Source: a virus
DNA length: 28,076 nt
IMG/VR virus record: IMGVR_UViG_3300048029_000289
Span: 1 to 28,076 of that record
Strand: one strand, 5' to 3'
Under the pieces are notes generated by a model. The model saw nothing but the letters and a program-made list of their open reading frames with translations. It had not been told where the DNA came from and made no database searches. Below, in pieces: positions 1 to 26,979 of the stretch; within the stretch, counting starts at the first letter, position 1; each line of letters starts with the position of its first letter. Both the position numbers and the translations under genes were made by a program.

Positions 1-292
1 TGCACTCCCATCTATTTTTTTTATTTTTAAACCAGCCATGCACAATGATTCTCCACCCTGCACCCAGAACTAACGGGTAGTTATCAGATTCACTAATCTT
101 TTTAATTCTGCTGCTCATGTTGCTTTTTGAAGTAACTTGCACAGCAAGGGTCTCGTCCTTGCTAATCGCCACCACGTCGATAAACCCAAACAAATCATTT
201 TTTCTCTTAGTGAAATAGTTATACTTTTCAACGTTTTCACAAAGATATCCTTGTTCTCTCAGTTTCAGAGTTGTTCGATTGGTCAGATTCAC
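1..292 (-). CDS. Nuclease-like protein, 3' end cut by window edge
   Basis: About 97 codons are visible; the C-terminus lies beyond the left edge. The start is a GTG at 292-290, chosen because GGAG lies 8 bases upstream on the minus strand and the frame stays open to base 1. The visible protein contains LREQGY, then DLFGFIDVVAI, an acidic turn, LAVQVTS, and later GWRIIVHGW. This order resembles small phage proteins of the restriction-endonuclease-like (PD-D/ExK, VRR-NUC or resolvase-like) fold, where D of FID and Q of VQ occupy the D...(E/Q)xK positions. The assignment is from memory of the family and is tentative. The gene overlaps the 3' end of the Cro-like gene by 56 bases, so the two are probably translated from one leftward message. 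A role in processing or resolving recombination intermediates would fit but is inference. Confidence 0.72.
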   Translation of the reverse strand, partial: MNLTNRTTLKLREQGYLCENVEKYNYFTKRKNDLFGFIDVVAISKDETLAVQVTSKSNMSSRIKKISESDNYPLVLGAGWRIIVHGWFKNKKNRWEC

Positions 293-482
293 GCAGCACG
301 CTCCATTCCACTTGCGGATTTAAGGTTTCACACGGGATTCCAGTTACTCTTTCGATTGTTGGGCAAAAACGTGCTGGAATAACATTTCCCCACTGTCCTA
401 CAGCCGATTTTGAAATATTGCAGATTTTTGCGAGTTTCGTCTTGGTTTTGGTATGTTTTAAAACTAGATTTAGTGTATTCAT
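237..482 (-). CDS. Cro/YdaS-like HTH transcriptional regulator
   Basis: This 81-residue protein has a helix-turn-helix at about residues 15-45 (KLAKICNISKSAVGQWG, then IPARFCPTIERVTG). That pattern is typical of the YdaS/Cro family of lambdoid-like phages, in which residues 'IPA..C..IE..TG' follow the recognition helix. It is divergent from the repressor gene at 754 and heads the leftward unit, the usual position of Cro. The expected role is to bind the shared operators and favour lytic development. The start ATG at 482-480 lies only six bases after a perfect TATAAT on the same strand, so the mRNA may be leaderless. The last third (after about residue 60) is polar and unlike the family core; it overlaps the start of the nuclease-like gene. 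Confidence 0.85.
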   Translation of the reverse strand: MNTLNLVLKHTKTKTKLAKICNISKSAVGQWGNVIPARFCPTIERVTGIPCETLNPQVEWSVLRESDQSNNSETERTRISL

Positions 483-488
483 ACCTAT

Positions 489-494
489 ATTATA
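489..494 (-). promoter_or_regulatory. -10 box of leftward (cro) promoter
   Basis: On the minus strand TATAAT is followed by six bases and then the ATG of the Cro-like gene. Transcription would start at or within a base or two of that ATG. No good -35 box is seen at 16-18 bases; only weak candidates lie around 512-519. The box abuts the palindrome at 494-510, so a repressor bound there would block it. Confidence 0.5.
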
Positions 495-510
495 AAGTAA
501 ACATTACTTT
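494..510. promoter_or_regulatory. Operator 1, palindrome AAAGTAA-ACA-TTACTTT
   Basis: A perfect 7-3-7 inverted repeat overlaps the cro -10 box. Its half-site shares the core ACTTT/AAAGT with the palindromes at 565-585 and 1473-1492. The position suits a CI/Cro operator controlling the leftward promoter. Confidence 0.55.
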
Positions 511-624: not shown

Positions 625-630
625 TATAAT
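625..630 (+). promoter_or_regulatory. -10 box of repressor promoter
   Basis: Perfect TATAAT, 17 bases upstream of the leader ATG at 648 and 123 bases upstream of the repressor ATG. A matching -35 is poor (TGCGAC at 603-608 with 16-base spacing), so the promoter may need activation by a bound regulator, as with a maintenance promoter. The start point would fall close to the GGAGA at 636-640. Confidence 0.4.
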
Positions 631-647
631 AATACGGAGATTTTTTT

Positions 648-812
648 ATGCACGTTAACACAATTCAATTCAATTCAATTCAATTCAATTCAATTCAATT
701 CAATTCAATTCAATTCAATTCAATTCAATTCAATTCAATTCAAAGGGTAAAACATGGATATCGACTCGTGGGTAGTATTTTGTCGAAAAAAACTAAAATG
801 GACTCAGGATGA
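648..812 (+). CDS. Leader peptide read through the CAATT repeat
   Basis: A 54-codon frame starts at ATG 648, with GGAGA at 636-640 and a 7-base spacer, which is a strong ribosome binding site. The peptide begins MHVNT, then reads IQFNS five times across the pentanucleotide tract, and stops at TGA 810-812, 56 bases inside the repressor gene in another frame. CAATT repeats have no stop in any plus-strand frame, but do on the minus strand (AAT TGA). If the copy number changed by +1 or -2, the same leader would stop at the TAA at 748-750, three bases before the repressor ATG. With one copy fewer (or two more) it would stop at TAG 773-775. The product itself probably has no function; a regulatory role in repressor translation is inference. 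It is not a recognised family. Confidence 0.5.
   Translation: MHVNTIQFNSIQFNSIQFNSIQFNSIQFNSIQRVKHGYRLVGSILSKKTKMDSG
661..743 (+). repeat. Pentanucleotide microsatellite (CAATT)16 plus CAA
   Basis: Sixteen uninterrupted copies of CAATT span 661-740, followed by a partial copy CAA. The tract starts inside a leader reading frame and ends directly against the repressor's ribosome binding site (AAAGGG, 742-747). Since 5 is not a multiple of 3, each gain or loss of a unit changes the downstream reading frame. Perfect tracts of this length are a hallmark of slipped-strand phase variation. The copy number in the assembled sequence may not be exact. Confidence 0.97.
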
Positions 813-1323
813 ACTTTCAATAAAACTAGGTGTTTCAAAGGCAACAATTTCTAGTTGGGAGACCGGCAAATATATTCCTAAAATGCAGAGCATTATTACA
901 CTAGCTGCTTTTGCAAACGAAAAGTTACCTGCGAAACTTAATTATGAAACCGCTGAATTTTATGCAACTTCATCAGCAAAAATTTTTTACAAAGATGTTT
1001 ATTTACAACCAACGGAGGATACATTGATTGTTGATGTTCATTTAAAAGATTGTTTTGCCTGGAGAGTCCTCGACACCTCTCTTGAGAAAGTTTTTAGAAA
1101 GGACGATGTTGTAATTGTAGAACCGAACGTCGAATTTAAACCGACAGATTATGTTTTAATCCGCGCAAATAAAACTATCTACGTTCGTAAAATTAAAATT
1201 ATTGATTACAGCACGGATCATTTTCAGTTTTTGCCTGAAAACGAATTGTTTCCCACGCTCGACAATAAAGTTCAAGATATAGAAATTATAGGGGTTTGCA
1301 AAGAAGTTAGGAGGACTTTGTAG
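754..1323 (+). CDS. CI-type phage repressor, HTH plus S24-like domain
   Basis: This 189-residue protein is the probable lysogeny repressor. Residues 5-55 form an HTH_3/Xre domain (WTQDELSIKLGVSKATISSWE). Residues about 80-185 look like an S24/LexA-type dimerisation and autoproteolysis domain: LDTSLEKVFRKDDVVIVEP matches the family pattern 'GDSMxPxxxxGDxVxV', and YVRKIKII matches 'xVKRL'. Ser109 sits where the catalytic serine is expected, but the lysine position reads Arg145, with Lys146 next to it. No Ala-Gly or Cys-Gly cleavage pair is visible in the linker. Cleavage under SOS is therefore doubtful. The start ATG has AAAGGG six bases upstream and directly follows the CAATT tract. The gene is divergent from the Cro-like gene and is followed by a terminator at 1405. 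Confidence 0.88.
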   Translation: MDIDSWVVFCRKKLKWTQDELSIKLGVSKATISSWETGKYIPKMQSIITLAAFANEKLPAKLNYETAEFYATSSAKIFYKDVYLQPTEDTLIVDVHLKDCFAWRVLDTSLEKVFRKDDVVIVEPNVEFKPTDYVLIRANKTIYVRKIKIIDYSTDHFQFLPENELFPTLDNKVQDIEIIGVCKEVRRTL

Positions 1324-1404: not shown

Positions 1405-1431
1405 GCCCACTTAATAGGTGGGTTTTTTTTT
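1405..1431 (+). terminator. Rho-independent terminator of repressor gene
   Basis: CCCAC (1406-1410) pairs with GTGGG (1418-1422) around an A/T-rich loop and is followed by nine T residues (1423-1431). It separates the repressor transcript from the recombination operon promoter 30 bases downstream. Confidence 0.85.
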
Positions 1432-1492: not shown

Positions 1493-1530
1493 TTACTGAA
1501 CAAATTCTAATTAAGGTTACTGGAGGAAAA

Positions 1531-2061
1531 ATGAATGTAATAAATTTGAAAGTACATCAGATACTAGCAAATATAAGGCAAAAGTTAGTTGAGTTAAACC
1601 CAAAACAAACTGGCAGTAATAAATTTCAAAACTTCGAATATTACCAATTAGCCGATTTTTTGCCTTTTGTAATTAAATTGGCTAATGCGCATAACTTGTC
1701 TTATCAAGAAACGTTTGGGAAAGAGGAGGCAAGTCTTACCCTCATAGATACAAACAGCGGTAGTTCAGTTACATTTTCTATACCAATTGATTATTCGGTG
1801 TTAAAGGGTGGTTCCCCAATGCAATCAATAGGAGCCTCTGTAACGTATGCGCGACGATATCTTTGGGTAAGTGCTTTAGGTTTAACTGACCATGATTTGT
1901 TAGATCAAATGAATTTAGATCAACCAATTACTCAACAAACAAAAAACACAACAAAAGACATCATCAGCAAAGCGCAAGCCAGAAAAAATACAATTGCTGA
2001 TCAACACAAAACTTTAAAGAAAAAAGAGGTTGTTCAAAATTCTACTGAGAGGACTTTTTGA
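1531..2061 (+). CDS. erf: ERF-family single-strand annealing protein
   Basis: The start at ATG 1531 is preceded by GGAGG (1522-1526) and lies downstream of the promoter, giving 176 residues. The ERF signature is visible at residues about 30-125: an N-terminal NFEYY..ADFLP segment, a beta-rich stretch (SLTLIDTNSGSSV), then GASVTYARRYLWVSALGL followed by acidic residues. ERF proteins (P22 Erf type) anneal complementary DNA strands during phage recombination and genome circularisation, usually with a partner exonuclease. That partner is the next gene, whose ATG shares one base with this gene's stop (TGATG). The C-terminal 45 residues are lysine-rich and polar, probably a flexible tail. Confidence 0.9.
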   Translation: MNVINLKVHQILANIRQKLVELNPKQTGSNKFQNFEYYQLADFLPFVIKLANAHNLSYQETFGKEEASLTLIDTNSGSSVTFSIPIDYSVLKGGSPMQSIGASVTYARRYLWVSALGLTDHDLLDQMNLDQPITQQTKNTTKDIISKAQARKNTIADQHKTLKKKEVVQNSTERTF

Positions 2062-2708
2062 TGGAGCCTACAAAAAAACCAATTGCAGAATCCATCCAGA
2101 GAACATCAGAATGGCATGAGCAACGCTTGGGCAAAGGAACTGCATCTAAGGCAAATGATATGCGTTCAAAAACGGGAGTAAAACGTAAAAACTATGCGAT
2201 TAGGTTGGTAACTGAAAGACGTACAAAAACGCCCGTAGATACTTTTGTTTCACCGGCTATGGAATGGGGAACAGAAAACGAACACTTTGGAAGAATGGCT
2301 TATCAAATTAAAAACAAAGATCGTGGAGTAGCAGAAGTTGGCTTTATGCTCCACCCTACCATCAAAAATTTCGGTGCATCGCCAGATGGTTTCGTTGAAA
2401 AAGACGGGCTACTAGAAATTAAATGTCCAAACTCTACAACTCATATTGAGTGGTTGCTTGCAGGCAAAGTCCCTTCAACTCACAAAAATCAAATGATTGC
2501 ACAGCTTGTTTGTACGGGTAGGAAATGGTGCGACTTTGTAAGTTTCGACCCTCGTGTTGGAGAAGATATTGAACTCTTTGTAGTGCGCTTTGAGCCAACA
2601 GATAAAGAGCGTAAGGAGTTGGAAAAAGATGTAACGGAGTTTCTAGAGGAGGTCGATGATATGGAAAAACAACTTTGCGACAATATTGAAGGAGGTATTT
2701 ATGGTTGA
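2061..2708 (+). CDS. YqaJ-type recombination exonuclease
   Basis: This 215-residue protein (ATG 2061, AGAGGA upstream) has the YqaJ/lambda-Exo order of motifs: RTSEWHEQRLGKGTASKAND near the N-terminus, ExxGTENE at about 68-74, then GASPDG with Asp109 and LLEIKCP with Glu119 and Lys121. This is the PD-(D/E)xK catalytic core. A conserved QMIAQL..TGRKWCDFVSFDP segment follows. The expected role is 5'-3' resection of double-stranded DNA to supply single strands to the ERF annealing protein just upstream. The length agrees with the family. The stop overlaps the start of the next gene by eight bases. Confidence 0.92.
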   Translation: MEPTKKPIAESIQRTSEWHEQRLGKGTASKANDMRSKTGVKRKNYAIRLVTERRTKTPVDTFVSPAMEWGTENEHFGRMAYQIKNKDRGVAEVGFMLHPTIKNFGASPDGFVEKDGLLEIKCPNSTTHIEWLLAGKVPSTHKNQMIAQLVCTGRKWCDFVSFDPRVGEDIELFVVRFEPTDKERKELEKDVTEFLEEVDDMEKQLCDNIEGGIYG

Positions 2709-3126
2709 GCTTGAATACGTTTTACAAGGAACGCCTAAAGAGATCACTGAACAACTTCTTTTGCGCCATGCCGATGAGGTTTACTATAACCCAGAATCTT
2801 TAAGTTTGAATGAAAAAAAAGTTATTGAGGATTGTTTAGTTTTTCATAAAAAAAACCCAATTGTATGGAAAACATTTTATAACCTTGCGTATCAAGTTTT
2901 TACAAAGCAAAAACGTTTTGGTGTAGCTGCGATCTGGGAACGAATGCGATGGGATTTACATTTCACTTTAAACTCAGATTTAGCCTACAAACTCAACAAT
3001 GACTACAAGGCTTTTTATTCCCGACTTTTTAATGAAGTAATTCAAGCAGATTTTTTTACGATGAGGGGCTCACTTTTTGATGAGGTCTTTTTTGAAATCT
3101 TAGCCGAGGAAGCAAAGTGTTTGTAA
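2701..3126 (+). CDS. Conserved phage protein of unknown function
   Basis: The start at ATG 2701 is chosen because AAGGAGGT lies five bases upstream; an earlier in-frame ATG at 2656 lacks this and would overlap the exonuclease deeply. The product has 141 residues. It has a segment NPIVWKTFYNLAYQVFTKQK, then a WERMRWD helix, KLNNDYKAFYSRLF and FFTMRG. I recall this pattern (AxxxRxRW, then a KxNNxxxxxYxRxF motif) from small unannotated phage proteins near replication and recombination genes. No catalytic motif is evident and no transmembrane segment is present. It overlaps the next gene by ten bases, so it belongs to the ERF-integrase operon. Confidence 0.82.
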   Translation: MVELEYVLQGTPKEITEQLLLRHADEVYYNPESLSLNEKKVIEDCLVFHKKNPIVWKTFYNLAYQVFTKQKRFGVAAIWERMRWDLHFTLNSDLAYKLNNDYKAFYSRLFNEVIQADFFTMRGSLFDEVFFEILAEEAKCL

Positions 3127-3350
3127 AAGCCTTAATTTTTATCGCTGGAGGGGGAGTTGTTTGGTGGTTTCAGTACATGAATTTAAACGAAACACATAGT
3201 TTGTGGAAAATTGCCTACGCGGCAGGTTACGCAAATGCTACTGAGTTTTATGAAGGTTTATTAGAAATTGAGAGAAGCGACAGCGTTGTAGATGCAAAAT
3301 GTTTGTTTCGGAATTTTGAATGGAAAGAATTAAATAATCGAGGAGAATAA
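3117..3350 (+). CDS. Small membrane-anchored protein
   Basis: A GTG start at 3117 with GAGGA about six bases upstream gives 77 residues. Residues 4-20 (KALIFIAGGGVVWWFQY) form one hydrophobic segment; the remainder is soluble and acidic, with two cysteine/aromatic-rich stretches. It is embedded in the recombination operon and overlaps the preceding gene by ten bases. I do not recognise a family. A membrane-associated role, such as superinfection exclusion or host interference, is possible but unsupported beyond topology. Confidence 0.65.
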   Translation: MFVKALIFIAGGGVVWWFQYMNLNETHSLWKIAYAAGYANATEFYEGLLEIERSDSVVDAKCLFRNFEWKELNNRGE

Positions 3351-3351
3351 T

Positions 3352-3609
3352 ATGGGTGTGAAATATGATGTGGTTGCCGTAACAGGAACATACCAAGATC
3401 CAGAGACAGGCCAAAAAAAAAATAAATACGTTACTTGCGGAAGGGTAATTGAAAACGATAATGGGTTTAGTTTAAAACTCGATGTTGTCCCTATAAGTGG
3501 TGAAGGTTGGTTTAATCTATGGGAGCCAAAAAAGAAAAATAATGGCGAAAGTTTTAAAAGAAATAACAATTATACTTCTACAAAACTTGACGATGAGCCT
3601 CCGTTTTAA
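3352..3609 (+). CDS. Conserved beta-rich hypothetical protein
   Basis: This 85-residue protein starts at ATG 3352 after GAGGAGAAT. The pattern KYDVVAVTGTYQDPETGQKK, then KYVTCGRVIEND, FSLKLDVVP and GWFNLWEPK suggests a compact beta-strand fold. Similar small proteins occur in many phages and mobile elements. The fold outline and the position beside ERF and exonuclease would suit a single-strand DNA-binding role, but no known SSB signature is present and this is inference. The C-terminus is polar and ends in DDEPPF, an acidic-aromatic tail that recalls the DDxxPF tip used by SSB proteins to bind partners. Confidence 0.75.
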   Translation: MGVKYDVVAVTGTYQDPETGQKKNKYVTCGRVIENDNGFSLKLDVVPISGEGWFNLWEPKKKNNGESFKRNNNYTSTKLDDEPPF

Positions 3610-3611
3610 CA

Positions 3612-3842
3612 ATGGATTGCCCAACTTGTACCGCTAAAAGTGAAACACTTGATACACGCACTTCACCTGGTGTTGTAAGGAGAAGAAGGCGGTGCAAAAA
3701 ATGTGGAATTATTTTTAAGACAGAAGAACGAGCAGTTAAAAAAGTTGTAAAAATTAAACAAGAAAAAACAAAAGTTGATGAGCCTTTTTATGATGACAGT
3801 TGGGATCATGTTCCATCTGGAGGTTACGATAAATGGGAATAA
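3612..3842 (+). CDS. Zinc-ribbon protein related to NrdR N-terminus
   Basis: This 76-residue protein has CxxC pairs at Cys3/Cys6 and Cys28/Cys31. The spacing and the run VVRRRRRCKKCG, then FKTEER, closely match the N-terminal zinc ribbon of the ribonucleotide reductase repressor NrdR. The ATP-cone that makes up the rest of NrdR is absent; the remainder is a lysine-rich stretch and an acidic aromatic tail. It is likely a small nucleic-acid binding protein. It follows the previous gene by two bases and overlaps a short frame at 3833. Confidence 0.78.
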   Translation: MDCPTCTAKSETLDTRTSPGVVRRRRRCKKCGIIFKTEERAVKKVVKIKQEKTKVDEPFYDDSWDHVPSGGYDKWE

Positions 3843-3979
3843 AAGATATTTTTGATTTAAAACTTGTGAAAGAAAATTTAACTGTTGCAGAGCGACAAAA
3901 ACTGCCACTAATCAAAATTAAAGATAAAATTTATTTATGTAGGAAGAAGAAAAATGGTAAAAACACCGCAGGACACTAG
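3833..3979 (+). CDS. Short basic hypothetical ORF
   Basis: A 48-codon frame starts at an ATG whose bases overlap the end of the zinc-ribbon gene (ATGGGAATAA) and stops at TAG 3977-3979, 26 bases inside the HTH gene. It fills the otherwise empty 111 bases between these genes. The product starts MGIKDIFDLKLVKENL and is rich in lysine. Overlapped start and end, and even spacing in a compact operon, favour a real gene; the lack of a recognisable family and of a clear SD keeps confidence modest. Confidence 0.45.
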   Translation: MGIKDIFDLKLVKENLTVAERQKLPLIKIKDKIYLCRKKKNGKNTAGH

Positions 3980-4229
3980 CCTAACTCTTTCTGAGGCCGC
4001 AGAGTTTTTGAGATGTTCGCCCAATACCTTGCGTTCCTTAGCACGTCAGGGTAAGGTGGGTTTTAAGGTTGGAAAAGAATATGGGTTTTTGGTTTCTCAA
4101 CTTGTGGAGTATGCAAATTTATGCACTTGTATCAACGAAATGGCATCTGGTGGCTCTCAGTTTTCTATCGCCAAGAAAAGATTAGAAAAAGTCTTGGAAC
4201 AAAGTCCAAACGCAAAGCCGCTCAATTAG
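3954..4229 (+). CDS. Excisionase-like HTH_17 DNA-binding protein
   Basis: The start at ATG 3954 follows AGGAAGAAG. Residues about 9-54 form a complete MerR/excisionase-type winged helix (LTLSEAAEFLRCSPNTLRSL, then GKVGFKVGKEYGFLVSQLVEY). The family includes recombination directionality factors. The domain ends at the base where the integrase ATG begins (4121); the remaining 35 residues are read from DNA that also encodes the integrase in the -1 frame and have no recognisable fold. AAATTTA at 4115-4121 is positioned so that a -1 slip would fuse this HTH directly to the integrase. As an independent protein it would be an Xis-like regulator of excision. Confidence 0.8.
   Translation: MVKTPQDTSLTLSEAAEFLRCSPNTLRSLARQGKVGFKVGKEYGFLVSQLVEYANLCTCINEMASGGSQFSIAKKRLEKVLEQSPNAKPLN
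4115..4121 (+). promoter_or_regulatory. Candidate -1 frameshift site AAATTTA
   Basis: In the HTH frame the codons are AAT TTA preceded by A, which fits X XXY YYZ exactly and is the same heptamer used by Rous sarcoma virus gag-pol. After a -1 slip the next codon is 4121-4123, the integrase ATG. A GGAG (4106-4109) lies five bases upstream and could act as integrase SD or as a frameshift stimulator. No strong downstream hairpin was seen by eye. Confidence 0.4.
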
Positions 4230-5212
4230 CGACTCAGTTTTTACAAGAATTAGAAGAGTTAAGCAGTGCAAAGCGCACTTTATTTGCTTGTCTTTCTGAT
4301 TGGTATGAAATGCGGCAAATCAAGGCAAAAAGAATTGATACTGATCGTGCTATTGTCCAGAAGTTTCTAAACTCGTACAAAGACGTCCCAGTTCACGAGG
4401 TAAACAATAAATACCTGGAGGAACATTTAAAAGTAAGTAATCCCACGTTTAATCGATATGTAACCGTGGTAATGGCTGCTGCTCGTTTATCTGCCCAGAA
4501 ATATAAGAATCCGCTACCCATTTTATATAAGAAACCGATACAGCAAACCCGTATGAGGTTCTTGTCGCAAAGTGAATGGTTACGATTAGAAAAGGTATTA
4601 CCAGATTATTTGAAGCCAGCAGTGGCGTTCTCACTAGCTACTGGATTAAGAAGAAATAACGTTTTAAATTTAAAGTGGAGTGAGGTTAACAAACAATCAA
4701 AAAATGTTGTTGTTTGGTCTGATGAGAGCAAGAATAAAAAACAACTCATTATTCCGCTTAGTGATTGGGCATTAGAAATCTTAAAAGAATGTTCTGGCAA
4801 AGGTGAAGTATATTGTTTTCCACAGGTCTCAGGAAAGCCAATAATTAATCCAAAAAGGCCGTTTCAAAAGGCTCTTGATAAAGCAGGAATAAAAGAGTTT
4901 CGGTGGCACGATCTGCGCCATACCTTTGCAAGTTGGGGTTTACAAAATGGTATGTCTTTAGCTGAATTAAAGGAACTCGGAGGATGGTCTAGTTTGACGA
5001 TGGTTATGCGCTACGCACACCTTGCCCCATCGAGATTAAGAGAGGCTACGAACCGTTTGAAAAAACCAACTGGTTCGGACACAATCGAGGCACAATCTGT
5101 AAATAGTGCCGAAAGATGGCGTCCCCAAGGGGATTCGAACCCCTGTACCCACCGTGAAAGTTCTAAAGGACTATATTTAGTAAAAAATAATCCAAAAAAA
5201 TCAGACACTTAA
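4121..5212 (+). CDS. int: Tyrosine recombinase (phage integrase)
   Basis: The 363-residue protein starts MHLYQRNGIWWLSV, a typical integrase arm-binding N-terminus. A core-binding domain follows at about 50-135 and a catalytic domain at about 145-310. Catalytic residues are visible: Arg177 (TGLRRNNVLNL), His263 and Arg266 (HDLRH), Trp289 (GGWSS, in the His/Trp position) and the nucleophile Tyr298 (MRYAHL). The last 30 residues, from about residue 333, are read from the tRNA-derived attP core and beyond (WRPQGDSNPC), so they are not part of the conserved enzyme and would change on integration. It overlaps the HTH gene by 109 bases. It catalyses site-specific insertion into, and with an excisionase removal from, a tRNA-Glu gene. 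Confidence 0.96.
   Translation: MHLYQRNGIWWLSVFYRQEKIRKSLGTKSKRKAAQLATQFLQELEELSSAKRTLFACLSDWYEMRQIKAKRIDTDRAIVQKFLNSYKDVPVHEVNNKYLEEHLKVSNPTFNRYVTVVMAAARLSAQKYKNPLPILYKKPIQQTRMRFLSQSEWLRLEKVLPDYLKPAVAFSLATGLRRNNVLNLKWSEVNKQSKNVVVWSDESKNKKQLIIPLSDWALEILKECSGKGEVYCFPQVSGKPIINPKRPFQKALDKAGIKEFRWHDLRHTFASWGLQNGMSLAELKELGGWSSLTMVMRYAHLAPSRLREATNRLKKPTGSDTIEAQSVNSAERWRPQGDSNPCTHRESSKGLYLVKNNPKKSDT
5078..5096 (+). repeat. Left pair of GRCACAAT repeats (arm-type site?)
   Basis: GACACAAT (5078-5085) and GGCACAAT (5089-5096) are spaced 11 bases apart, 20 bases before the attP core. The same pair recurs on the other side at 5266-5285. Paired direct repeats flanking a tRNA-derived core are typical of integrase arm-type sites. 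Confidence 0.5.
5117..5160 (-). other. attP core: 3' part of tRNA-Glu (TTC)
   Basis: Read on the minus strand this is the tRNA-Glu sequence from the anticodon loop (CTTTCAC, anticodon TTC) through the T arm (AGGGG TTCGAAT CCCCT), the acceptor 3' strand, discriminator G and encoded CCA (5119-5117). The 5' half of a tRNA is absent: bases after 5160 do not pair with the anticodon stem. It is therefore not a tRNA gene but the phage copy of the attachment sequence. It lies within the integrase coding region. Integration would place the integrase side of the core next to the host's tRNA 5' half and so restore a complete tRNA-Glu gene. Confidence 0.88.
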
Positions 5213-5247
5213 ATGAAAGGTTTTTTTTAATTAACGCTCATTTAAGT
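5207..5247. repeat. Inverted repeat ACTTAAATGA around integrase stop
   Basis: A perfect 10-base inverted repeat (5207-5216 and 5238-5247) encloses a 21-base loop with eight T residues. The first arm contains the integrase stop codon. It lies between convergent transcripts and next to the attP core. It may serve as a weak terminator or as a protein-binding site; sequence alone does not decide. Confidence 0.5.
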
Positions 5248-5265
5248 ACAGTATACACTCATTGA

Positions 5266-5285
5266 GACACAATTTCGGGCACAAT
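5266..5285 (+). repeat. Right pair of GRCACAAT repeats (arm-type site?)
   Basis: GACACAAT (5266-5273) and GGCACAAT (5278-5285) are spaced 12 bases apart and match the pair at 5078-5096. They lie about 105 bases beyond the attP core, in the short gap between integrase and endolysin genes, ending at the endolysin stop. Confidence 0.5.
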
Positions 5286-5668
5286 TAATAAGACCAAATT
5301 GTTGGTCTTGGTCTTTCTGGTGAATGTTCTATTGTGTCTAAATGAATAAACCGACCTAAGTTTTTTTGTTGTATTCCTACACCTGTGAACCCCTTGCTTA
5401 AAGCTATTCTTAATAAATGAAAAGCATCTTGTCTTGATACCGCTATATCAGCAGCTTGGCCCGTGGTATGAGCTCCTGGAGTTTTTTTCTTTCGTTCAAT
5501 CGGATGGGTTGTGTGTCTATACCCAGATGTAATTTTCATAGGTTTTCCAAATGCAGTACGCAACTCATTTAATTTGCGGATAAACTCAGGGTCCATGTCG
5601 CATTGACCTGTATGACTGCATTTAAACTCGTACTGAGTAAAATAGGTACTTAAATTCCAATCCATCAT
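5285..5668 (-). CDS. Endolysin, peptidase M15_3 family
   Basis: This 127-residue protein has the M15 zinc-peptidase signature. SGYR (48-51) is followed by PGAHTTGQAADI, with His67 and Asp74 as zinc ligands, then GVGI and FIHLD, with His109 as the third ligand and Asp111 beside it, and a C-terminal RPTIWSY typical of Peptidase_M15_3. These enzymes cut peptide crosslinks in peptidoglycan, and in phages they act as endolysins. There is no signal peptide, so it would need the adjacent holin to reach the wall. Its ATG overlaps the holin stop (ATGA). It is the last gene of the minus-strand late block. A hairpin (5290-5309, AAGACCAA with TTGGTCTT) lies in its last codons. Confidence 0.93.
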   Translation of the reverse strand: MMDWNLSTYFTQYEFKCSHTGQCDMDPEFIRKLNELRTAFGKPMKITSGYRHTTHPIERKKKTPGAHTTGQAADIAVSRQDAFHLLRIALSKGFTGVGIQQKNLGRFIHLDTIEHSPERPRPTIWSY

Positions 5669-7175: not shown

Positions 7176-7775
7176 TTATGCTCCTATATGTAATCCTGTT
7201 AATTCTAAATCTTCACCTATGTAACCTTTTAAGAATGTATTAAAAGATAAACTTATTCTTTCTTTGCCTACTACCTTTTCAACCATGTGAGTTAAGCTAG
7301 AAGGAAAGATAACTAAATCATTTGTGCCTGTTTCAAACCACCAACTCTCACTATTAAAAAGGTTGTATTCTTTAGCAGGTATTTTTATTTGTTTGTATTC
7401 TTCTTTAAAAAAATAAATTTTATCTTTTGTTTTATCAGCTTGTACATAAAACACACCAGATATAAAACTGTTAGGGTGTGCGTGTTTATGATGAAACTGA
7501 CCTTCTTTTGTATAGTTGCACCATGACTGAGTTATATAAGGCTCAACATTATTTTTAGGTTGATATATATTTTTAAAATATTCTTTTACAGACTTTTCTA
7601 TAAATTGTTTTAGTTTTTTCATTTCTTTATTATTTAAAATATTATTATCAATTGATGTTGTATTACCTGTATTACCTCTTGTCTTTTGTTCAGTTACAAA
7701 CTTTATTTCTTTTTCTGTTATTCCTTTATATTGAAAAAATGTAACCGCAGTTGGAAATAAGGAATGAGTTATCAA
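7176..7775 (-). CDS. 2OG-Fe(II) oxygenase (TIGR02466-like)
   Basis: This 199-residue protein fits the putative 2-oxoglutarate and iron-dependent oxygenase family found in many marine phages. Residues 95-110 (HHKHAHPNSFISGVFY) carry the HxHxNSxxSGVxY motif with the first iron ligands. FPSSLTHMVEKV gives the distal histidine (His163), and KERISLSFNTF gives Arg173, which would bind 2-oxoglutarate. Substrates in phages are unknown; hydroxylation of a protein side chain, perhaps on the neighbouring tail-fibre proteins, is an inference from position. The start overlaps the 3' end of the preceding gene by four bases. Confidence 0.85.
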   Translation of the reverse strand: MITHSLFPTAVTFFQYKGITEKEIKFVTEQKTRGNTGNTTSIDNNILNNKEMKKLKQFIEKSVKEYFKNIYQPKNNVEPYITQSWCNYTKEGQFHHKHAHPNSFISGVFYVQADKTKDKIYFFKEEYKQIKIPAKEYNLFNSESWWFETGTNDLVIFPSSLTHMVEKVVGKERISLSFNTFLKGYIGEDLELTGLHIGA

Positions 7776-9708: not shown

Positions 9709-10619
9709 TATGAAATATTCCCAGTAAGTACAGCTAAATTTGCTGAATAACTAAACATAATTGATGCAACTCCATTTGCATCTAAAGTATGTAGAGCCGT
9801 TGCCGCCAAATCTCCTGCTTTAACTGCATTAACAGCAGTACAAGCTATTGAAGCGGTACATCCATTAACAGAAACAAGAGAAACAATATCGCCTACGCCA
9901 AACACGCCTGTGGGAACTGTAACGATTACGTTTGCTGAGTTTATTGTTACTTGATTACCAACGTCACCAATTGCAAGAGTGTAGTTTCCACTCACTTTTG
10001 TGCTTAACGGTATATCTCTTAAATTACCATCTGCATCGCTAATTAACGCAGTAGAATTAACTGTTCCAATATTTAGTTGACCACTAGCACTTGCATTTCC
10101 TGAACCATCAAATCCTGAACCTGCGGACCCTACGGCTCCAAACACTTGCCAGTTACTAGGGTTGCTACTTGGTACGTTGTTTAAATTAGAATCCGTTCTG
10201 GATAAATAACTATTGCTATCGCTTACAAGAAAAACGATATCGTTGGTCTGATATGTGGTTGAAGCATCGTAATTTCCCCGAGGGGTAAATCCTACTGCCG
10301 CAGGAGTCGAACTATTTTCAAACCTACTTACCAAAGCAATCAATCCGCTACCGCTTGCACTTGCGTTTACTTTATCTCCTGCCGCCATATTAATAGGTGC
10401 ATCAAATGCCTTTAAGGTTGTGTCACCAGTAACGGTTTGTGTAAGTAAACTTAGCTCACTAGATGTACCTGAATCAAAATACGATAGTGTTACATTTAAA
10501 TTACCGCCCGTAGGGTTAGCAATTAATAAACTATGCAGCGATGCTTCTAAAGTAGCAGGTACAGTCATTAATGTGGTTGATGCTGTACCGATCGCGATTG
10601 GTTGGCCGACTAATGCCAT
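9708..10619 (-). CDS. Tail fibre-associated protein
   Basis: This 303-residue protein is rich in Ser, Thr, Ala and Gly. A segment in the middle (RGNYDASTTYQTNDIVFL, then SNPSNWQVFG) resembles the carbohydrate-binding 'YxxxxxYxxxDxVxxxxxxYxxxxxxxxxxPxxxxxW' modules found in phage fibres. A collagen-like short GSAGSGFDGSG linker follows, then a beta-rich C-terminus. N-terminal residues 1-110 look like a beta domain. The role is probably virion decoration or fibre extension. It starts four bases after the stop of the large fibre gene. Confidence 0.78.
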   Translation of the reverse strand: MALVGQPIAIGTASTTLMTVPATLEASLHSLLIANPTGGNLNVTLSYFDSGTSSELSLLTQTVTGDTTLKAFDAPINMAAGDKVNASASGSGLIALVSRFENSSTPAAVGFTPRGNYDASTTYQTNDIVFLVSDSNSYLSRTDSNLNNVPSSNPSNWQVFGAVGSAGSGFDGSGNASASGQLNIGTVNSTALISDADGNLRDIPLSTKVSGNYTLAIGDVGNQVTINSANVIVTVPTGVFGVGDIVSLVSVNGCTASIACTAVNAVKAGDLAATALHTLDANGVASIMFSYSANLAVLTGNIS

Positions 10620-26445: not shown

Positions 26446-26979
26446 TTACGCTCCAACTTCGTTACCCCAACAATCCCAACCCTTCGTTTGTTGCCTAGCA
26501 AATAATTCAATTCGAGGTAAATCCCCGCTACAGGTAACAATTAAATTACGAAAAGAAGCGGGTTTTTGAGAATGTAATCTTGGGTTTTTTTCTGCAAACA
26601 TATTTTTTGTCGTTTTATTTTTTACTTTCATTTTGCCTTTTACGCCAAAAATAACGTGTTCTGTACAACCTCTGAAATAATATCCCATGCCCATTTCAGG
26701 AGTTCCATCACGATAAGTTTTGACCCATGTAATTAAAGTTTTGTAGTCAAACCCCCATGCTTTACAAACATTCAGTCCTTCTTGTAAAAATGGGTTTGTT
26801 ACCCACAGATATAAGTGCGCTTGTTTTTCTACAATTGCAGGTACGTTTAAATTATAAATTTCTTCGATATTCATTGTTGAATATGTATGTTCATTCGCAC
26901 CATTGCCCCAATTTTCTTTATATTGCCACGGGGGGTCAGCATAAATAATTTTATATTTTTTGTCTGGCAAAGGTATCAA
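26446..26979 (-). CDS. MT-A70-type DNA adenine methyltransferase
   Basis: This 177-residue protein has YADPPWQY (DPPW at residues 15-18), the catalytic motif of N6-adenine methyltransferases of the MT-A70/Ime4 family, and the downstream SAM-binding TEHVIFGVKG and LPRIELFARQ with KPASFRNLI. The start codon is TTG at 26979-26977, since no ATG precedes the catalytic motif. In phages such enzymes modify DNA to resist restriction or mark packaging. It lies among small genes upstream of terS. Confidence 0.88.
   Translation of the reverse strand: MIPLPDKKYKIIYADPPWQYKENWGNGANEHTYSTMNIEEIYNLNVPAIVEKQAHLYLWVTNPFLQEGLNVCKAWGFDYKTLITWVKTYRDGTPEMGMGYYFRGCTEHVIFGVKGKMKVKNKTTKNMFAEKNPRLHSQKPASFRNLIVTCSGDLPRIELFARQQTKGWDCWGNEVGA

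Follow-up and report, generated by a model that had tools for sequence, protein, structure and literature searches.

The architecture of the lambda CI/Cro immunity region serves here as the template for comparison, and the lambda maintenance message is leaderless, whereas the repressor described below is preceded by a leader open reading frame (ORF) led by a Shine-Dalgarno (SD) sequence. Repeat slippage is a familiar cause of phase variation in bacterial surface and restriction genes. The opacity genes of Neisseria, which carry a CTCTT pentamer, are given as an SSR phase-variation locus (PMC3899988). For translational coupling, a review holds that the spacing between stop and start codons exerts strong control, citing one study in which coupling was unchanged from -4 to +25 and lost at -25, together with the coat-lysis pairs of MS2, coupled at -50, and of fr, coupled at -38 (PMC12548453). 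A literature search, with subscription journals largely outside its scope, gave no precedent for a repeat tract within a phage's repressor leader.

Immunity region of the window and its relatives

The window, the whole stretch of DNA analysed (28,076 nt), contains a lambda-like immunity region, that of a tailed phage with a temperate life cycle, with the following features.

237-482, minus strand: Cro/YdaS-like regulator, divergent from the repressor
493-502, plus strand: TAAAGTAAAC, a candidate half-site of an operator ahead of the Cro-like gene, with one-mismatch copies at 552-561 and 580-589
754-1323, plus strand: CI-like repressor of 189 amino acids with HTH_3 and Peptidase_S24 domains
1405-1431, plus strand: intrinsic terminator-like hairpin and T-run, 3' of the repressor
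1469-1496, no strand assigned: candidate operator before the recombination operon, with TAAAGTAAAC on the minus strand (1469-1478) and TAAAGTTTAC on the plus strand (1487-1496)

The gene at 754 had been called a repressor from the letters alone, and this identity was borne out, with the HTH and S24 domains of a CI-like repressor on one strand and a Cro-like gene opposite. Four solved structures match the protein at E <= 0.01, in its HTH part only. After the repressor the plus strand carries ERF, YqaJ exonuclease, HTH_17 and integrase genes; the terminase, portal and major head genes are on the minus strand. The TAAAGTAAAC motif was chosen by eye among repeats, and a further exact copy at 10365-10374 is probably due to chance.

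Relatives were sought in viral_contigs with the repressor, a repressor alignment, the ERF, Cro-like, exonuclease and neighbouring genes and two DNA patterns. Besides the window, five records carry a repressor of the window type (L013, L014, L011, L012 and L020), all of them IMG/VR contigs that we take to be metagenome assemblies. L014 (IMGVR 3300046370_000360) and the window share 99.97-100% identity in two aligned parts of 5976 and 2487 nt, and the two may come from the same population. L013 (IMGVR 3300017776_000575) belongs to a sister phage, with 97.6% identity over 1-1542, including the tract described below, and 93.6% over 2109-5299. The repressors of L011 and L012 are 98% identical to that of the window and follow a GTG-led leader of 40 nt with no tract, and the repressor of L020 (56% identity) follows an ATG-led leader of 34 nt, again with no tract; the repressor ATG is retained in the relatives. 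The leader counts given below exclude L041, in which the repressor is quite different, the more distant L022-L024 and L052-L055, which have other arrangements in the stretches inspected, the short contig L038, which has only 192 nt ahead of its exonuclease match and does not reach the control region, and L021 and L051. The genome contigs contained no match to the repressor, its alignment retrieving only three weak HTH-only matches there. Among annotated phages a single match was obtained, to the CI repressor of an Aeromonas phage (30.5% over 48% of the repressor), and the four annotated portal-relative records have regulators described as Cro-like or left unspecified, with a single gene given as 'Cro/CI family', none being named a CI repressor.

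Several other features of this group were apparent. Within the region of the ERF-type gene (1543-2108), window positions 1528-2061 have no nucleotide match in L013, L011 and L012, which flank the unmatched stretch at 93-98% identity on both sides. The L011 contig has a different short gene in this place; for its homologue in L020 all PHROGs matches are of unknown function, and the comparison of these sequences suggests a cassette swap. The reverse complement of L021 (329-1095) has a Cro-like gene with a different N-terminus and no repressor before the recombination gene, and an integrase-sized ORF was not found after its HTH_17-like gene; by this gene content L021 may be a virulent derivative of the temperate group. 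Given that L014 (2488-6164) bridges the two ends of the window (1 and 28076) through ~3.7 kb missing from it, the genome is probably ~31.8 kb long and the window incomplete. The phage also bears genes for a putative 2OG-Fe(II) oxygenase (7176-7775) and a putative MT-A70 methyltransferase (26446-26979).

The CAATT tract and the leader frame

The leader ORF, which holds a pentanucleotide repeat, runs into the start of the repressor gene. The relevant features are these.

625-630, plus strand: TATAAT, a putative -10-like box just 5' of the leader SD, for which the scan found no matching -35
636-640, plus strand: leader SD, GGAGA, kept in the window, L011 and L020
648-812, plus strand: leader ORF of 54 amino acids, in the +1 frame relative to the repressor, which it overlaps by 59 nt
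661-743, plus strand: perfect (CAATT)16 tract (661-740) followed by CAA (741-743)
742-747, plus strand: weak SD-like AAAGGG of the repressor
748-750, plus strand: TAA, at which 14 or 17 copies would stop the leader ahead of the repressor ATG (spacing +3)
773-775, plus strand: TAG, the expected leader stop at 15 or 18 copies, spacing -22
810-812, plus strand: TGA, the leader stop at 16 or 19 copies, spacing -59, which in the same position also stops the L011 and L020 leaders

The original prediction had named sixteen perfect pentanucleotides between a GGAGA-led ATG at 648 and a repressor ATG at 754 with its own AAAGGG, and each of these elements is present in the sequence. TRF reports the tract as 16.6 copies of 5 bp with 100% matches and a score of 166, the runner-up in the window scoring 47. 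As in SSR phase-variable loci, it is long, perfect and tandem, with a unit that is not a multiple of three. A probe of five CAATT copies was expected 0.00 times (100 shuffles), and a six-copy probe matched two records in viral_contigs, a searched set from which the window's own record is possibly absent, both of them kin of the window phage. A census of perfect 4-6 bp repeats, covering the window and 17 other loci of 3.8-41 kb each, gave a similar picture, with two of the 17 being CAATT carriers (19 and 16 copies) and the other 15 having no more than four copies of any unit.

Because the unit is 5 nt long, the leader frame shifts at every step of gain or loss. The stops proposed for 16 copies, for one more or two fewer and for one fewer were reproduced when we recomputed them across 10-23 copies: the leader ends at 812 (spacing -59) with 10, 13, 16, 19 or 22 copies (1 mod 3), at TAG 773-775 (-22) with 12, 15, 18 or 21 (0 mod 3) and at TAA 748-750 (+3) with 11, 14, 17, 20 or 23 (2 mod 3). 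The last series runs into TAA before ATG 754, so that the tract is not an in-frame switch of the opacity-gene type, and with the same codon in the way the leader cannot extend the repressor N-terminally in frame. A functional leader peptide was likewise rejected, with no PHROGs match at E <= 0.01, a repeat part that is missing from relatives and a C-terminal sequence that is set by the overlapping repressor gene.

Two homopolymer runs, T9 (617-625) and T7 (641-647), lie 5' of the leader. The second sets the distance between SD and start, is T6 in L011 and T4 in L020, and is a second possible length-variable site. Within the repressor, the A7 run at 786-792 (CGA AAA AAA), kept in L020, is a possible -1 slippery site, at which a shift would terminate at TGA 810-812, the same stop as that of the leader.

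Comparison of copy number among relatives, as had been proposed, showed that it is not invariant: the three tract-bearing records have 16 (window), 16 (L014) and 19 (L013) copies, the kind of difference between close relatives that is seen at SSR phase-variable loci. In the window and L013 the tract is the sole difference between positions 471 and 1088, and hence it has changed where substitutions have not. Miscounting of the tract or its length in short-read assembly is an extremely improbable source of the difference; the records are presumed metagenome contigs and tracts of 83-98 bp would be near the read length, but the same tract stands in the same place between identical unique flanks in three records from two clearly different strains. 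The slippage switch that had been predicted thus stands as far as copy-number variation is concerned but not as to a change of phase, all alleles stopping at -59. None of the three tract-bearing records, a small sample, is in a different phase (all 1 mod 3), the alleles differing by three units and therefore sharing one phase.

Conservation of the leader

The six records comprise four distinct leaders, of 34, 40, 106 and 121 nt to the repressor ATG, and all four lengths are 1 mod 3. In each of the four the leader is in the +1 frame and ends at the same stop codon 59 nt into the repressor, the arrangement of a coupled pair, in which the upstream ORF has an SD of its own and reaches past the next start. 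One shared phase in four leaders has a probability of 1 in 27 under equal odds for each phase, and with only four distinct leaders the common frame could be chance; furthermore, the 16- and 19-copy alleles have a common history. The leader SD forms a stronger duplex with the anti-SD than the repressor SD does in each case, at -6.4 to -7.3 compared with -1.7 to -5.0 kcal/mol (repressor SD of the window -4.5, L011 -5.0 and L020, which is nearly without an SD, -1.7 kcal/mol). In a three-sequence alignment GGAGATTTT falls in columns that are invariant within an otherwise poorly conserved stretch.

The overlap with the repressor is also conserved at synonymous sites. Over codons 2-19 the codons of the window and L020 agree for 9 of 10 conserved residues, compared with 51 of 91 elsewhere in the gene (p 0.035), 31 of 67 for the same codons in six control genes (p 0.010) and 3 of 11 in the following 18 repressor codons (p 0.006), in a test that excluded Met and Trp, was run after inspection and concerns ten codons in one pair. 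Eight genes were compared as controls, of which 3954 and the integrase gene were dropped, the L020 stretch having no homologue above 50% identity. The L011-L020 comparison (9/10 against 51/92) is not independent of that between the window and L020.

We also scanned 45 gene starts of the window, picked from the ORF list, for an out-of-frame ORF with an SD duplex of -6.0 or better that starts within 130 nt and overlaps the gene by at least 20 nt; the scan is small and was run after inspection. Such ORFs precede five of the 45, two involving the adjacent called gene or a second ATG of that gene, one being TTG-led and one an 11-codon GTG ORF, so that an independent ATG-led and SD-led ORF overlaps out of frame at one start only, that of the repressor. 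The TTG-led ORF, before 4121, has a shape similar to that of the leader, with an overlap of 65 nt. All five lie in the +1 frame, which indicates that this frame tends to be open in the genome and that 1 in 27 is optimistic.

These results bear on whether the leader matters at all. The tract may have grown by neutral slippage in an unconstrained spacer, with a leader ORF that is non-functional and a shared frame that is coincidental, which would agree with the lack of a tract in the sister phages L011 and L012, with a repressor that has its own ATG in relatives, with flat accessibility of the repressor start at 12-22 copies (see below) and with a coincidence of 1 in 27 at best in a genome whose +1 frame tends to be open. 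We consider this improbable, as the SD and start of the leader have been retained while the remaining leader turned over, synonymous conservation is confined to the overlap and the repressor start of L020 is almost without an SD. Judged from the sequences, one phase with and without the tract looks like conservation of the frame rather than switching.

Repressor translation and known systems

Between 12 and 22 copies the energy predicted for opening the repressor start is constant, at 3.18-3.25 kcal/mol for the ten variants computed, and an action of copy number through RNA folding was rejected for this range. Hence any effect of copy number, as distinct from the presence of the tract, should come via the leader frame and stop. 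Across 1-22 copies the prediction is 2.9-3.6 kcal/mol, compared with 6.5 when the units are removed in silico, 4.5 for L011 and 9.1 for L020. These last values would be expected if the presence of the tract and not its phase counts, an A/U-rich, weakly pairing spacer keeping the start open for its own weak SD. We regard this as very unlikely, given that one copy is as good as 16, so that a long tract is unneeded, and that the shared leader frame and the conservation of the overlap are left unexplained. A structured regulatory leader was rejected, as folding of three stretches (from L020, from L011 and at 736-843 of the window, the last with the tract end only) was no better than that of shuffles (z 0.27 to 1.01). 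Coupling by unfolding is therefore unsupported, although the repressor SD is weak or missing and the L020 start is costly to open.

The explanation that we favour, and to which we would give about an even chance, is that a recent, mutable tract has grown within an older, frame-constrained leader, so that each step moves the stop among -59, -22 and +3 and could reset repressor translation. The promoter scan upstream of the leader found no plus-strand promoter, its sole plus-strand candidate (855-884) lying within the repressor; the TATAAT box ends five bases 5' of the leader SD, and the message may start near that SD. The repressor message would then probably open with a short out-of-frame leader ORF bearing its strongest ribosome-loading site, and ribosomes would load mainly at the leader. 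Within this old leader, held to one frame, the CAATT tract would have expanded in a single branch and would change length by slippage, as the 16 and 19 copies suggest, with pentamer steps shifting the leader stop from the observed -59 to -22 or +3. At +3, termination-reinitiation would raise repressor translation, and at -59 there would be weak coupling or partial interference. By the published spacing guide the observed state would be weakly coupled or uncoupled; the loss of coupling at -25 in one study cited by the review (PMC12548453) implies that -59 may simply be uncoupled. A gain of one unit, to +3, should on the same analysis produce a high-repressor state, and the difference of three units suggests that the genomes recovered are kept at -59.

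Two stronger readings go beyond this favoured one. The tract may be a contingency locus for adaptive phase variation, in which changes of copy number switch repressor translation and populations hold lysogeny-prone and lytic-prone members. A long, perfect and polymorphic tract of 5-nt units within the leader ORF, with three frames that correspond to three stop-start spacings (+3, -22 and -59), is what such a locus would have, but a single phase is represented among the known alleles, relatives with no tract are in it too and the tract is found in one branch only, and we think the reading unlikely. It is also unlikely that conserved leader and slippage together form a three-position dial, single-unit mutations heritably resetting the set point between lysis and lysogeny for some members of the population.

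Gain or loss of repeats could nevertheless reset the amount of repressor, and if this is true phages can bet-hedge lysogeny by mutation, beyond physiology alone. Even without switching, a conserved out-of-frame leader over the start of a CI-like gene suggests that a lambda-type switch has a layer of control in translation, and the polymorphism of the tract makes the question of switching measurable from read data alone.

Two known systems share features with this locus. Like the Neisseria opacity genes, it has pentanucleotide repeats in a 5' region that is read as codons, a frame shift at each step and natural length variation. However, the opacity genes have their tract among signal-peptide codons of their own, where a shift means on or off, whereas the window tract is in a separate overlapping leader; it differs further in belonging to a phage repressor operon and in having been found in one phase. 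As in the coat-lysis pairs of MS2 (-50) and fr (-38), an upstream ORF is out of frame and ends tens of nucleotides inside the next gene (-59). Unlike in those phages, the upstream ORF is a short leader rather than a coat gene, its stop can be moved by repeat slippage, the downstream start shows no folding above shuffles and the coupling of leader to repressor is only putative. The surrounding region is like that of lambda, with a CI-like HTH/S24 repressor from which a Cro-like gene diverges, with genes for recombination and integrase in the direction of the repressor and with operator-like repeats before both lytic operons.
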